This document shows, piece after piece, positions 555 through 8,502 of a stretch of DNA of 49,884 bases. Numbering within the stretch: the stretch's first letter is position 1; each line of letters starts with the position of its first letter. A program made the translations under genes and the position numbers. The stretch is from Actinomycetota bacterium (GTDB lineage Bacteria; Actinomycetota; Actinomycetes; Nanopelagicales; Nanopelagicaceae). Below the pieces are notes generated by a model. That model searched no databases and was not told the DNA's origin. It was given only the letters and a program-made list of their open reading frames with translations. The stretch lies in NCBI GenBank assembly GCA_009702925.1, contig WLHC01000004.1, positions 1 to 49,884 of the forward strand. Reading direction: 5' to 3'.

Positions 555-1747
555 CCCACTCGGCACTTGATTTTACCGATCCAGATTTCATAGCTGACCC
601 TTATCCTGCTTTAAAGGAGTTACGCAAAGGGGATGGGCCTGTTTGGCACGAAGGAATGCAAATCTTTCTGGCTGCCAAACATGGTGATGCCAATGATGTG
701 TTTCGAAATAAATCATTAGGACGAATATTCGCGCCAAAAACTCCAGAGTTTGAGTGGGAGATTTTCAACTGGCTCCATGCAGATTCAATTTTAGATAGTG
801 AGCCACCCAAGCACACTCGATTACGCTCACTCGTTGCAAAGGCATTTAATCGTCAGAAAATTGAAGGAATGCGACCATCTGTTGAGCGCATCACTAAACA
901 ATTACTGGATTGCATTGATGAGAAAGTGAAATCAGGGGAAACCTTTGATCTTATTGCAGACTACGCCGAGCCTCTGCCAGTAAAAATCATTGCCGATCTT
1001 TTAGGTTTTCCTGAAAGTGATGAACACTTACTTCGTCCGTGGTCTCAAGCAATTGTAAAGATGTACGAAGTAAATCCATCCCTGCAATATCAAGCCGATG
1101 CTAAAGAAGCCGGACGTGAATTTGCAGAGTATGTACGTGGACTAGCAGAACAGCGTAAGAAAACTCCTGGCCAAGATTTAATAACAGAGTTAGCAACTGT
1201 TGAAGAAAATGGAGAAAAGCTCAACATGCAGGAGTTAGTAGCAACGTGCATTTTGCTTTTAAACGCAGGCCATGAAGCAAGCGTGAATGCTTTTGGAAAT
1301 GGAATGGTGGCTGTTTTGGAGCGCCCTGACCAAACAAAACTCCTGCGGGAAAAGCCTAGAGAGCTAACTAATACGGCGCTAGAAGAGTTCATGCGATTTG
1401 ACGCACCACTGCATTTGTTTGAGCGAACTGCTACGGCCGATACTCAGATAGGGGGAGTAGAGATCAAACAAGGACAGAAAATTGCTGCATTGATTGGTTC
1501 TGCAAACCGTGATGAATCTATTTTCTCATCGGCAGAATCAATGGATGTAACCCGTGATCCAAATCCTCATGTTGGTTTTGGTGCTGGTATTCACTTCTGT
1601 CTGGGTGCGCCATTAGCAAGACTTGAGATGAGCGTTTCATTGCCTGCTTTGTGGGAAAAGTATCCAGGAATGCAACTATCAACTAAGCCAGTACGTCGGC
1701 CAACATTTGTTTTGCGTGGTTACGAAAACGTCTTTATCTCAGCTTGA
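551..1747 (+). CDS. Cytochrome P450 (soluble bacterial CYP)
   Basis: This is a 398-residue heme monooxygenase without a membrane anchor, the usual length for soluble bacterial CYPs. The I-helix oxygen-binding motif reads AGHEAS near residue 239, the K-helix ExxR motif reads EFMR, and the heme loop reads [10 protein letters not shown] with the cysteine thiolate at residue 350. No ferredoxin or reductase gene adjoins it, so its redox partners must lie elsewhere; the 7Fe ferredoxin at 33.6 kb is one possible donor. The start ATG overlaps the add stop by 4 nt, which suggests co-translation. The substrate cannot be predicted. The 3' end overlaps the convergent ribokinase gene by 28 bp. Confidence 0.95.
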
Positions 1748-2625
1748 TCAGGGTATGAAGACTGGGCGCCTTTTTTCGTAACGCTTCGAGATGCAACCTT
1801 TACACCAAAGCGCATAGCAGTTGCTGGATCCTCACCCTTAGCTAATGCGTAGGCAAAACTGCCAACAAAGCTATCTCCGGCCCCTGTTGTATCAACTGCC
1901 GTTGATTGTGGAGCCGGACATTTAACTAGTGAGCCATCAGAATCTATGAAAATTGCGCCCTGACTACCCACAGTTACAATCGATTTCTTTCCAGGTCTAA
2001 AGCTTTTTAGAATTTCATCACTAGTTGGCAATGCCCCATGAAGTTCACGGAACTCGGTTTCATTTGGAATGATCCAATCGCACAGTTCGATTAACTCCGG
2101 GGAAAGCTGTTCAAATGGAGCAGGATTTAAAATTGTCGTGCATCCACGGCTCTTTGCCGCCTTAAATGCTGCAATTGTTACTTCCTGCTTAATTTCACAT
2201 TGTGCAATCACAATAGTTAGATCAGGAATGTTATTGATTGCATCAACTGCTCGACTGATTTCAATCTCATGGTTTGCTCCTGGGATGATAATGATCCTGT
2301 TTTCACCTTCACCATCAACCCAGATATGTGCAACTCCAGTAGGTGTATTACTTCGATCTACATAAGAAACATTAATTCCGACTTTATTGAAGTTTTCAGC
2401 GATAGCATCTCCGAATACATCTTTTCCAAGTTTGCCAATAAAGTGAACATTCGCTCCGCACAGAGCTGCCATTACTGCTTGGTTTGCACCTTTGCCGCCA
2501 AAACCAGTTGTAAAAACTTCACCTACAAGTGTTTGACCTGGCTCTGGCAGGACATGGGCATAGGCAGTTAAATCCATCATCGCACTTCCAACGACGGCAA
2601 TAACTGCGTCCTGATTTTGGCTCAT
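1720..2625 (-). CDS. rbsK: Ribokinase (PfkB family)
   Basis: Ribokinase phosphorylates D-ribose to ribose-5-phosphate using ATP. The 301-residue protein has the normal family length. The N-terminal substrate motif GGKGANQAV and the C-terminal signature DTTGAGDSF, with the catalytic Asp at residue 251, are both present. Ribose would come from the nucleoside hydrolase encoded divergently 18 bp away, so the pair forms a nucleoside-to-ribose-5-phosphate shortcut. The 3' end overlaps the P450 coding end. A TACCCT hexamer sits 6 nt before the ATG, with a TTGAAG element 16 bp further upstream that lies inside the neighbouring coding region. Other PfkB sugar kinases cannot be fully excluded. Confidence 0.9.
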   Translation of the reverse strand: MSQNQDAVIAVVGSAMMDLTAYAHVLPEPGQTLVGEVFTTGFGGKGANQAVMAALCGANVHFIGKLGKDVFGDAIAENFNKVGINVSYVDRSNTPTGVAHIWVDGEGENRIIIIPGANHEIEISRAVDAINNIPDLTIVIAQCEIKQEVTIAAFKAAKSRGCTTILNPAPFEQLSPELIELCDWIIPNETEFRELHGALPTSDEILKSFRPGKKSIVTVGSQGAIFIDSDGSLVKCPAPQSTAVDTTGAGDSFVGSFAYALAKGEDPATAMRFGVKVASRSVTKKGAQSSYPDQAEIKTFS

Positions 2626-2630
2626 TGCGC

Positions 2631-2636
2631 TAGGGT
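2631..2636 (+). promoter_or_regulatory. Leaderless -10 hexamer for the nucleoside hydrolase
   Basis: TAGGGT ends 7 nt before the ATG at 2644, and no Shine-Dalgarno sequence is visible. It overlaps the oppositely oriented ribokinase hexamer by five bases. Inferred from position and sequence only. Confidence 0.6.
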
Positions 2637-2637
2637 A
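2632..2637 (-). promoter_or_regulatory. Leaderless -10 hexamer for rbsK
   Basis: Read on the minus strand the hexamer is TACCCT, ending 6 nt before the rbsK ATG. A TTGAAG element at 2654-2659 gives a 16-bp spacer. It overlaps the plus-strand TAGGGT hexamer, so the two promoters probably exclude each other. Confidence 0.6.
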
Positions 2638-2643
2638 CTGGTT

Positions 2644-3594
2644 ATGGAAAAAACTTCAATCATTTTGGATGTTGATACAGGCATCGACGATGCATTTGCA
2701 GTTTTATTTGCCGCAGTACATCCAGATATCAAACTACTTGGTATCACATGTGTGGACGGCAATACCAATATAGATAATGTTGTTGCAAATACCCTAAAAG
2801 TTCTAGATGCTGCTCAAGCACCTGACATTCCTGTTGCACGCGGGGCACTTCGTCCATTACTAGGGGAGAGTCAATACGCCGAGTATGTACATGGCGCAGA
2901 TGGCATGGGGGATTTAGGAATTGCGCCATCGAAGCGAAAAATTGATCCGCGTTCTGCTGTCGAACTTCTGCGAGATTTGATTGAAAACTCATCAGAGCCG
3001 GTGACAATTGTTCCTTTGGCACCCCTTACAAACATCGCCTTATTTTTGAGAGCTTTTCCAGAGACAGCAAAGAAAATACATAGAATCGTTTTAATGGGAG
3101 GTTCCGCATCTGCTGGTAATGCCACCGCAACAGCAGAATTCAATGTTTGGCATGATCCAGAGGCTGCAGCAATTGTTTTTCAAAGCGGTGTTCCAATAAC
3201 CATGTATGGCCTTGATGTCTTCATGCGCCCTGGAATCACTCGCGAACAAGCACTTAAGCTGCAAGGATCGTCCTCAAAGTCGGCACAGTTCGGAGGCGCA
3301 TTAGCTTTAGCATTTATGGAGCGTTTGGGCGTTTCTCCAATCACTTTGGGCGACTATGGAGCAGTAGCAAGTGTAATTCGCCCCGAATTATTTACTACTG
3401 CGATGTTTGATGTGGTTGTCGATACATCAGCAGGCCCGGCGCGCGGTCAGACAATTGTTGATAGACGTGATGCATTTTTACGCGAACTTGAGCCAATTGA
3501 TTTAGAAGATTCAGCAAAGGTTCGAGTTACATTGGATTTAGATGTGGATGCTGTTGTAAAACTATGGCTTGACACTATTGAATCTAAAAACTAG
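2644..3594 (+). CDS. Inosine-uridine preferring nucleoside hydrolase
   Basis: This 316-residue enzyme should hydrolyse ribonucleosides to a free base and ribose. The N-terminal DVDTGIDDA motif carries the calcium-binding aspartates that define the IunH/RihA family, followed by the conserved PLAPLTNIA and MGGSA segments and a late Asp in NVWHDPEA. I chose the ATG at 2644 rather than an in-frame TTG at 2617, because the protein then begins just before the motif and a TAGGGT hexamer sits 7 nt upstream. Divergent from ribokinase, which consumes its ribose product. Substrate preference among purine and pyrimidine nucleosides is not readable from sequence. Confidence 0.93.
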   Translation: MEKTSIILDVDTGIDDAFAVLFAAVHPDIKLLGITCVDGNTNIDNVVANTLKVLDAAQAPDIPVARGALRPLLGESQYAEYVHGADGMGDLGIAPSKRKIDPRSAVELLRDLIENSSEPVTIVPLAPLTNIALFLRAFPETAKKIHRIVLMGGSASAGNATATAEFNVWHDPEAAAIVFQSGVPITMYGLDVFMRPGITREQALKLQGSSSKSAQFGGALALAFMERLGVSPITLGDYGAVASVIRPELFTTAMFDVVVDTSAGPARGQTIVDRRDAFLRELEPIDLEDSAKVRVTLDLDVDAVVKLWLDTIESKN

Positions 3595-3612
3595 AACTAT
3601 TTTTCTAAAACT

Positions 3613-4455
3613 CTAAACACCGATGGTGTGCCAGATAGTTTTACTCTCTGCAAAGGCCGTAATTCGGGCGGCAGTAGCGCCTTTAAAGCTATAAATTCTT
3701 TTGAGGTTTTCTGCTCCAGCAACTTTTATTTCTGATGTTAACTTAGAAGATAGCCCAGAGATATCCATCGCATCAATATCCATGTGAGATGCCATCCAAG
3801 GTGCGATTTCATCCTTTTTGCCAGTCAAAACATTAATCACTCCTGCTGGTAAGTCACTGGTTGCAAGAACCTCTGCAAAGCTCATCGCAGATAATGGGGC
3901 CTTTGTACTTGCAAGGACAATTACTGTATTTCCAGAAGTTATCACTGGTGCAATAGATTCAATCAAACCTAAAAGAGATGGGTTCTCAGGGGCTACGGCT
4001 GCCACAACTCCCATACTTTCAGGAATTGTGAAGTTATAAAAAGGACCAGCAACAGGATTGTTTGCGCCAGTCAGAGAAGAAATCTTATCGCTCCATCCGG
4101 CATACCAAACTAATGTGTCAATCGCTTGTAGAACTTCTTTCTCTGCCTTTACTTTTGTGACACCAGTTGTGATCATGATTTCTTGAACAAACTCACCTGT
4201 TCGAGCTTGCAGCATCTCTGCAATTCGATACAAAATCTGTCCACGGTTATATGCCGTTGCTTTACTCCAGCCATTATGAGCAGCGCGTGCTGCAACAACT
4301 GCTTCGCGTAAATCTTTTCTTGAAGATTGACATGCATTGGCAAGAAATGCACCTTTAGAAGTTTTCACTTCATATGTACGACCAGATTCACTGCGAGGAA
4401 ATGCTCCGTTGATAAAGAGTTTGTAGGTTTTTTTCACATCAATGCGCTCACTCAT
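3613..4455 (-). CDS. Aldehyde dehydrogenase-like half protein lacking the catalytic domain
   Basis: At 280 residues this is little more than half of a normal aldehyde dehydrogenase (about 480). It aligns with the N-terminal and cofactor-binding part of its upstream neighbour: FINGAFPRSESG, YNRGQILYRIAEML, then a degenerate copy of the IPWNFP region (VAPENPS). It ends soon after where ELGGK should be. The general-base Glu, the catalytic Cys and the whole C-terminal domain are absent. It ends cleanly in KTIWHTIGV, and the next gene lies convergently 18 bp away, so the truncation is not a frameshift. I recall similar short partners beside deoC in other Actinobacteria. Its start overlaps the upstream stop as TAATG, which suggests fixed stoichiometry. 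Function unknown; possibly a structural or regulatory subunit. Confidence 0.85.
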   Translation of the reverse strand: MSERIDVKKTYKLFINGAFPRSESGRTYEVKTSKGAFLANACQSSRKDLREAVVAARAAHNGWSKATAYNRGQILYRIAEMLQARTGEFVQEIMITTGVTKVKAEKEVLQAIDTLVWYAGWSDKISSLTGANNPVAGPFYNFTIPESMGVVAAVAPENPSLLGLIESIAPVITSGNTVIVLASTKAPLSAMSFAEVLATSDLPAGVINVLTGKKDEIAPWMASHMDIDAMDISGLSSKLTSEIKVAGAENLKRIYSFKGATAARITAFAESKTIWHTIGV

Positions 4456-5941: not shown

Positions 5942-6889
5942 TTAATCCACACTCACATAGGTAGGACTAGCGTAGTAGCCATTATCCATTTTCATTCGCT
6001 GCATCAATAGATCATTGAGCAGTGCGCTTGCTCCTATACGAAATAACTTTGAATTGAGCCATTCTTCGCCAGCAGTCTCTTTGACTAGCACCAACTGCTT
6101 AATCGCATCTTTTGTATTGCGAATTCCACCGGCCGGCTTGACCCCGATTCGTTTTTGAGTCATTTCGTAAAAATCCCGAACCGCTTCTAGCATTACCAAA
6201 ACAACAGGAGCAGTAGCAGCAGGTGCCACCTTGCCTGTTGAAGTCTTAATGAAGTCAGCTCCTGCAGCCATTGCTAAAAATGAGGCTTTTCGTACATTGT
6301 CATATGTAACCAACTCGCCAGTTTCAAAGATAACTTTGAGATGGGCTTTATCACCACAAACCTGTCGAATGGTGACAATCTCATTGAAAACATCAATTAA
6401 TCTTCCCTCTAAAAATGCTCCACGATCAATGACCATATCTATTTCACTAGCACCAGCATTAATTGCATCCTGAGTATCTAGAACTTTCACTTCAATAGAG
6501 GCACGTCCCGATGGGAAAGCAGTTGATACGGCAGCAACGGGTACATGTTTACCGCCAATTAAATCAAGATGCTTTCGAGCCACACCAACCATGTCGTTAT
6601 AGACACAAATTGCACCAACACTTGGAACGCTGGAATCTGTTGGGTCAGGCCGCACAGCTTTTGTGCAAAGAGCTTGGACCTTGCCTACAGTATCTGCACC
6701 TTCCAAAGTTGTTAGATCAACCATTGAAATAGCAGTATCTATTGCCCATCGTTTTGAAGTTGTCTTAATACTTCTTGTCGCAAGCATTGCCGCACGGGCA
6801 TTTGCTCCAACTTGATCAACACCAGAAAGTTTGCTCAAATATGTTTTAAGCGATGCTTCACTACCATCAACTAATCCGTAAAAATTCAC
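5942..6889 (-). CDS. deoC: Deoxyribose-phosphate aldolase
   Basis: DeoC cleaves 2-deoxyribose-5-phosphate to acetaldehyde and glyceraldehyde-3-phosphate. The 315-residue protein is the longer form of the family, with an N-terminal extension. The Schiff-base Lys is at about residue 215 in ADFIKTSTGK. The proton-relay Lys is at about 251 in GVKPAGGIR, and the EIDMVID motif lies upstream. The start is GTG, and its GTGA overlaps the stop of the phosphomutase gene, so the two are translationally coupled. The downstream aldehyde dehydrogenase can remove the toxic acetaldehyde. Confidence 0.96.
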   Translation of the reverse strand: MNFYGLVDGSEASLKTYLSKLSGVDQVGANARAAMLATRSIKTTSKRWAIDTAISMVDLTTLEGADTVGKVQALCTKAVRPDPTDSSVPSVGAICVYNDMVGVARKHLDLIGGKHVPVAAVSTAFPSGRASIEVKVLDTQDAINAGASEIDMVIDRGAFLEGRLIDVFNEIVTIRQVCGDKAHLKVIFETGELVTYDNVRKASFLAMAAGADFIKTSTGKVAPAATAPVVLVMLEAVRDFYEMTQKRIGVKPAGGIRNTKDAIKQLVLVKETAGEEWLNSKLFRIGASALLNDLLMQRMKMDNGYYASPTYVSVD

Positions 6890-8502
6890 GATAGCAATTC
6901 CTTCAACGATGGTCGTAACTGACTTAAAATCTCACCTGCGATTTTTGAATTCTTTTCAATGACCTCAATGTAACACTTGAGCTTTGCTTCAGTCCCACTT
7001 GGACGAATAATGACTCGTATTGATCCTTCGAGCCAGATTCGCAATCCATCCGTTGCCGGTAATCCATCTGTTGGTTTCGATAAATCCTCAAGAAGTGTGA
7101 CTTGCCGGCCAGCAATCTGATGTGGTGGATTGCTGCGCAAAGAGGAAAGTAAATCCTTAACCTGGCTAATCTCCTTGACTCTAACCGAGATCTGCTCTGT
7201 TGCATGATATCCATGCATACTCCAGATATCGCTGAGAAGATCCAGAATTGTTCTTCCATCCCGAGCTAAATCGGTGGCAATCTGTGCAATAAAAATAGCA
7301 GCAGATATGCCATCTTTGTCATTAACAGTTTCAGGATCAACGCAGTAACCAAGGGCTTCTTCATATCCAAAAGAGAGATTTTGGATCTTTGAAATCCACT
7401 TAAATCCAGTCAGTGTTTCTTGGAACTTTATGGATTGGTTTTGAGCAATCTTTTTTACGATTGTTGAAGAGACTATGGAATTGGCAAAGACTCCTTGGTC
7501 ACTTTCTTGGGAGATAACGTGAGCAAAAACTGCACCCAACTCATCACCATGAAGAATTCTCCAACCAACTATTGGATCTTGGATTGCAACTGCGCAACGA
7601 TCTGCATCTGGATCGGTTGCAATCACCAAATCTGCGTGAGATTTTTTTGCCAACTCTATGGCTAAATCCATTGCACCCGGTTCTTCAGGATTTGGAAAAG
7701 CAACTGTAGGAAAATCTGGATCGGGTTGGGCCTGCTCCACAACTAGCTGCGGAGGATCAAATCCAGCTGCTTTAAATACCGAGAGAAGCGTTTGGGTTCC
7801 TACTCCATGCATAGCTGTGTAAACAATCTTTAATTTTCCCGGATTCTGTGCCAACCGAGCCGTTCGAGAAACGTATTTTTCAATCAATTGGTCATCAACA
7901 ATGTTCCATTTATCTGCTCGCAGAAGGTTCTTAGCTGAAACAACTTTTGATATTTCATCAGCGATCAATGAATCTGTGGGTGAAGTTATTTGAGAGCCCC
8001 GATATGTAATCCCATCTACTGTTCCTCCGAGGTAGACCTTAAAACCATTATCTTCTGGTGGATTGTGACTAGCCGTGACCATAATTCCAACGTCACAACC
8101 AAGTTCTTTAGTTGCAAAAGCTAGAACAGGAGTCGGTAATGGATGTGACAAAACCATTGTTTTCATTCCGGCACCAGAAAAGATCTGCGCGGCTTCAATT
8201 GCAAACTCCTTAGATCCATGACGGGCATCTTGTCCGATAACAACTGATTTCAGACCATGTGATTTCATGTATGCAACTAATCCTGCAGATGTTCGGGCAA
8301 CAACTGCTCTATTCATTCCGGATGGACCAGGGCGAACTGGGCCACGCAACCCCGCGGTACCAAACTGCAAGAAACCACTAAAAGATGCGCGAAGCTCTAT
8401 TTCATTATTGGAATCAAGCCAGCTTTGAAGTTGGGCAGCAGTATTCGCATCTGGATCATCGAGAATCCACTCATTAACTTCCTGTAAAAAATTTTGGTCC
8501 AT
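6886..8502 (-). CDS. Phosphohexomutase-family enzyme, probably phosphopentomutase (PGM2-like)
   Basis: This 538-residue alpha-D-phosphohexomutase has the phosphoserine loop TASHNPPEDNG (Ser 145), the metal loop DPDADRCAV, a sugar-binding segment GYEEALGY and the phosphate-binding RPSGTEAK. Homologues are often labelled phosphomannomutase. The operon places it between purine nucleoside phosphorylase and deoC, where a phosphopentomutase converting (deoxy)ribose-1-phosphate to the 5-phosphate is required, and no DeoB-type gene is present. PGM2-like members of this family are known to act on pentoses. The specific assignment is inference. It lies 4 bp after the PNP gene. Confidence 0.9.
   Translation of the reverse strand: MDQNFLQEVNEWILDDPDANTAAQLQSWLDSNNEIELRASFSGFLQFGTAGLRGPVRPGPSGMNRAVVARTSAGLVAYMKSHGLKSVVIGQDARHGSKEFAIEAAQIFSGAGMKTMVLSHPLPTPVLAFATKELGCDVGIMVTASHNPPEDNGFKVYLGGTVDGITYRGSQITSPTDSLIADEISKVVSAKNLLRADKWNIVDDQLIEKYVSRTARLAQNPGKLKIVYTAMHGVGTQTLLSVFKAAGFDPPQLVVEQAQPDPDFPTVAFPNPEEPGAMDLAIELAKKSHADLVIATDPDADRCAVAIQDPIVGWRILHGDELGAVFAHVISQESDQGVFANSIVSSTIVKKIAQNQSIKFQETLTGFKWISKIQNLSFGYEEALGYCVDPETVNDKDGISAAIFIAQIATDLARDGRTILDLLSDIWSMHGYHATEQISVRVKEISQVKDLLSSLRSNPPHQIAGRQVTLLEDLSKPTDGLPATDGLRIWLEGSIRVIIRPSGTEAKLKCYIEVIEKNSKIAGEILSQLRPSLKELLS

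Follow-up and report, generated by a model that had tools for sequence, protein, structure and literature searches.

The window analysed here is the whole 49,884-nucleotide stretch at positions 1 to 49,884 of contig WLHC01000004.1. It belongs to the genome of a streamlined, tiny-genome bacterium from the freshwater actinobacterial group acI (Ca. Nanopelagicales), and its closest relatives include Ca. Planktophila, Ca. Nanopelagicaceae and 'acI-Phila'. The acI genomes sampled for comparison are small and have a GC content of 0.46. Near the start of the window, a ribokinase-like gene (rbsK) and a gene for a nucleoside hydrolase (NH) are arranged divergently, and their products catalyse consecutive steps of ribose salvage: nucleoside hydrolase releases ribose and the base from a nucleoside, and ribokinase converts the ribose to ribose-5-phosphate. 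Further sugar-catabolism genes lie nearby, e.g., a gene for a DeoC-family aldolase. Coordinates confirm the 18-bp gap between the two genes that had been described in an earlier note on this DNA; the spacer between rbsK(-) and NH(+), positions 2626-2643, reads TGCGCTAGGGTACTGGTT. No Rfam element was found within 1500-3700. The features of the locus are collected in Table 1.

Table 1. Features of the rbsK/NH locus (window coordinates) and other divergent acI gene pairs with a TANNNTA core (coordinates of the respective stretches).
Feature	Position	Strand	Remarks
rbsK, PfkB-family sugar kinase (ribokinase-like)	1720..2625	-	PF00294 PfkB, E = 2.6e-68; ATG at 2625-2623
Inosine-uridine preferring nucleoside hydrolase gene (NH; IU_nuc_hydro)	2644..3594	+	PF01156, E = 1.8e-83; ATG at 2644
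Intergenic spacer	2626..2643	.	exactly 18 bp; same length in 34 acI loci; in effect the whole of the proposed divergent promoter
Shared symmetric -10 core TAGGGTA (TANNNTA)	2631..2637	.	TAGGCTA in most relatives
NH -10 element TAGGGT	2631..2636	+	7 nt before ATG; TANNNT at gap 6/7 is a genome-wide signal
rbsK -10 element TACCCT	2632..2637	-	6 nt before ATG; TANNNT at gap 6/7 is a genome-wide signal
Predicted NH mRNA start	2643..2644	+	leaderless or 1-nt leader; from -10 position; acI leaderless starts prefer C/T at -1 and A at +1
Predicted rbsK mRNA start	2625..2625	-	A of ATG, leaderless; from -10 position
Putative rbsK -35 TTGAAG	2654..2659	-	inside NH codons 4-6; 16 nt upstream of rbsK -10
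Acyl-CoA carboxylase beta subunit (pccB)/biotin protein ligase	L116:2834-2853, L228:1503-1522	divergent	18-bp gap, TACGGTA core
Endonuclease III (nth)/Crp-family regulator (crp)	L112:13280-13299, L257:5069-5087	divergent	18- and 17-bp gaps, TANNNTA core
MobA-like transferase/calcineurin-like phosphoesterase	L226, L231, L233 around 1501-1524	divergent	18-bp gap, TAGGATA core; several species

Each strand of the spacer carries a hexamer of the form TANNNT, and the positions that the earlier note had given for TACCCT and TAGGGT, 6 and 7 nt from the respective starts with an overlap of five bases, are borne out by the coordinates. Within the resulting core TAGGGTA, -7T and -11A of opposite strands are reciprocally paired, which is the symmetric -10 arrangement of the 18-bp class of bidirectional promoters. 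From 300,000 random 18-mers taken from acI genomes, 425 (0.14%) had TANNNT at a distance of 6 or 7 nt from each end. The overlapping -10 layout is not due to chance, and its conservation among relatives weighs more for this than the random frequency. A generic E. coli-type sigma-70 scan misses the site because it demands 9/12 matches to TTGACA/TATAAT, while actinobacterial -10 elements follow TANNNT.

We compared 42 acI loci, the window locus included, of which 34 have an 18-bp gap, six have a 23-bp gap and two are different. The cultured acI strain IMCC19121 also carries the gene pair (L030). TANNNTA occupies spacer positions 6-12 in all 34 loci with the 18-bp gap. Among their 20 distinct spacers, the core columns T, A, G, G, T and A are invariant, and all 11 columns beyond the core vary. 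The six loci with the 23-bp gap form a side clade in which the -10 elements TATTAT (rbsK) and TAGGCT (NH; TAGAGT in L031) overlap by TA. Conservation of the overlap across relatives, proposed in the earlier note as a check, is found in both groups, with a different overlap in the side clade, and together with the geometry it supports a single promoter core common to the two genes. L036 and L039 have no rbsK start at the site, yet they keep TAGGCT 7 nt before NH. The N-terminal sequences of both proteins vary, that of rbsK also in length, and the fixed gap of 18 bp is therefore left without a coding explanation.

Transcription was predicted to start 7 bp past the last T of each -10 element. For the window locus (starts at 2625 and 2643) this predicts a start-to-start distance of 18 bp, and for the side clade one of 23 bp. 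Since the predicted starts coincide with the start codons or precede them by one base, both mRNAs are expected to be leaderless; the one extra nucleotide on the plus strand (gap 7) was counted against this explanation. The first T of TANNNT falls at -12 for rbsK and at -13 for NH. In Actinobacteria, about 20% of genes are leaderless and the first T of TANNNT lies about 12 bp before their start codons (PMC3160421), and the TANNNT motif is also described in M. tuberculosis (PMC3898074). Leaderless mRNAs for both rbsK and NH are probable on the basis of sequence, because TANNNT stands 6-7 nt before about 20% of acI starts. More specifically, of 1709 predicted acI starts in about 1.9 Mb of sampled DNA, 337 (19.7%) are preceded by the motif at 6 or 7 nt, compared with about 1% at other distances, and the starts in this count had been picked by coding potential and codon type only, independently of the motif. 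Leaderless-type starts in acI tend to have a pyrimidine at -1 and A at +1. The commonest form of TANNNT at acI starts is TAGGCT (stretches L111-L190 and L241-L260). Our literature search found neither a transcriptome of acI at start-site resolution nor a paper on leaderless genes in acI.

At bacterial bidirectional promoters, a spacing of 18 bp between opposed transcription starts is preferred and spacings of 10 and 23 bp are also frequent, since at these distances -7T of one direction pairs with -11A of the other (PMC12825309, PMC10268837). The 18 and 23 bp predicted for the acI loci are two of these three preferred distances, and the rbsK/NH layout is a compact version of this known promoter type. 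With the bidirectional promoters described by the Grainger group (PMC12825309, PMC10268837) it shares the symmetric -10, the reciprocal -7T/-11A pairs, and the start distance, predicted at 18 bp (23 bp in the side clade). In contrast to those promoters, both rbsK/NH products are coding and apparently leaderless, and the promoter core makes up the entire intergenic region; the Grainger-group papers considered here concern enterobacteria and do not discuss leaderless pairs. The -10 motif, its distance from the start codon and the gene share of about 20% resemble actinobacterial leaderless genes (PMC3160421; for M. tuberculosis, PMC3898074), but rbsK and NH would use a single -10 between them, where each of those genes has its own. 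Closely juxtaposed divergent promoters of M. tuberculosis, e.g., prpD/Rv1129c, also belong to divergent neighbours that are both leaderless, whereas a shared, overlapping -10 is not described for them in the passages of PMC3898074 consulted. The picture of a shared promoter drawn in the earlier note survives as regards the core, while it had overlooked the leaderless spacing (6-7 nt) and the published bidirectional geometry.

We consider it highly probable that a bidirectional core promoter occupies the 18-bp gap, with both mRNAs leaderless and an upstream element of rbsK embedded in NH. The near-palindrome TANNNTA would act as -10 on both strands, with -11A and -7T of one direction base-paired with -7T and -11A of the other. 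The housekeeping RNA polymerase would dock in either orientation and initiate on each start codon or one base ahead of it, and with both mRNAs leaderless a separate leader or Shine-Dalgarno site would be unnecessary. One core promoter would in this way feed two adjacent ribose-salvage reactions, and a selected upstream element for rbsK, probably its -35, would be contained in the first NH codons.

The earlier note had read TTGAAG inside NH as a -35-like element of rbsK, and a selected element does lie there. Of 2233 four-column windows (conserved columns of NH and neighbouring genes), the one formed by NH codons 3-7 shows the strongest synonymous constraint. Thr4 is encoded by ACT in 31/31 NH orthologues and Ser5 by TCA in 30/31, and these are the only two low-codon-entropy columns among 139 NH columns (conserved residue, high codon degeneracy). 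The constraint ceases at codon 8, and the codon alignments show that it acts at the DNA level. Classical sigma-70 -35 elements are TTGACA-like hexamers 16-18 nt upstream of the -10; TTGAAG, at 16 nt, has this spacing to the rbsK -10, while a -35 for the NH direction was sought in the rbsK codons and none was recognised. The constrained element is probably the rbsK -35. We infer this identity with some reserve, because start-proximal codons of neighbouring genes are somewhat constrained too (mean entropy 1.25 versus 1.59) and TTGA shows no general enrichment upstream of the -10 elements of acI leaderless genes. For the latter reason TTGAAG was rejected as a general acI -35.

The same two observations favour another reading, compatible with the shared -10, in which the block at NH codons 3-7 would be a signal for translating the leaderless mRNA, or a regulator site, rather than the rbsK -35. 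Against it, the constraint ends at codon 8 and spans TTGAAG at a -35-like distance from the rbsK -10, and the rbsK -10 of the 23-bp clade, which has no TTGAAG, is closer to consensus. This reading is a real, if lesser, possibility. The combination of a missing TTGAAG with a more consensus-like rbsK -10 in the side clade is suggestive of the -35 role, although it may stem from a single evolutionary event.

How the two directions of the proposed bidirectional core would relate to each other can be considered in light of E. coli. The earlier note saw a built-in either/or switch, in which polymerase competition at the core decides between ribose release and phosphorylation. Polymerase docking must be mutually exclusive on steric grounds, as opposed polymerases are unable to bind together, and when one side is activated, repression of the opposite side can follow (PMC12825309). 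To this extent the idea that RNA polymerase serves one direction at a time stands, but basal bidirectional promoters in E. coli do not measurably compete: in 5/5 of those tested no competition was seen at basal strength, and it became clear only when one side was strengthened (PMC12825309). Furthermore, ribokinase acts on the product of nucleoside hydrolase, and neither an activator site at the locus nor a regulator of the rbsK/NH pair was found. A switch appears rather unlikely. Coupled expression of rbsK and NH is likelier than a toggle, and it would be the simpler reading because nucleoside hydrolase and ribokinase catalyse consecutive steps.

A core serving one direction only, with the promoter of the other gene elsewhere, would explain the matching -10 as a by-product of -10 symmetry, which yields bidirectionality for free (PMC10268837), and would agree with the lack of a recognised NH -35. 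It is difficult to reconcile with start codons that both lie at the exact leaderless distance, with a gap of 18 bp kept despite the variable N-termini of both proteins, and with a 23-bp clade that re-creates two correctly placed -10 elements with a different overlap; we regard it as quite unlikely. It is very improbable that AGGG, 8 nt before the NH ATG in the window, is a Shine-Dalgarno-like site and that translation rather than transcription holds the spacer, for although such tetramers are likewise enriched before acI starts, TAGGCT of most relatives is a worse Shine-Dalgarno site while T, A, T and A of both -10 elements are invariant, and a Shine-Dalgarno site does not require TANNNT on the rbsK strand 6 nt from its start.

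A bidirectional core of this kind may also exist at other acI loci. The genome-wide class rests on about 1.9 Mb of acI DNA from one genus, with 194 divergent pairs, 34 of which show the leaderless signature for both genes. The closest of these 34 overlap in two ways only, with an offset of -1 (17-18 bp; four pairs from three gene families) or of 4 (22-24 bp; two pairs). No fewer than three further conserved pairs have the 17-18-bp TANNNTA layout (Table 1), the MobA-like/phosphoesterase pair having been added by pattern search; a control with the AT-for-TA pattern was uninformative, since runs of CAT/ATG codons bias it. In the pccB/biotin protein ligase pair, an enzyme family and its modifying ligase would sit on one promoter core. 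Two high-GC relatives of other families (a small sample of 400 kb) have the leaderless signal, and no 18-bp TANNNTA pair was found in them.

In streamlined acI genomes, the distances between divergent start codons may thus be set by promoter geometry, with the shortest intergenic regions being single bidirectional -10 elements in fixed 18- and 23-bp classes that often couple functionally related genes, a proposal that we hold to be evenly balanced. Single bidirectional -10 elements could be the shortest functional intergenic regions because many acI genes are leaderless; quantised start distances are put forward as a hypothesis, given the few pairs and the one-genus sample. If its start sites are confirmed, the rbsK/NH intergenic region would be near the minimum, with two genes, one -10 and no leaders, and would show genome streamlining combining with leaderless translation. 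TANNNTA between start codons 18 bp apart would then provide a sequence rule for coupled pairs in uncultured Actinobacteria, and such pairs would offer natural, conserved coding-coding bidirectional promoters for testing the orientation choice of the polymerase.

Elsewhere in the window, synonymous constraint is also strong at 6958-6990, corresponding to codons 505-515 near the 3' end of a minus-strand gene (6886-8502, sugar-phosphate mutase-like). This block sits about 70-100 nt upstream of the start of the DeoC-family gene at 6889 and is possibly an embedded promoter or regulatory site.
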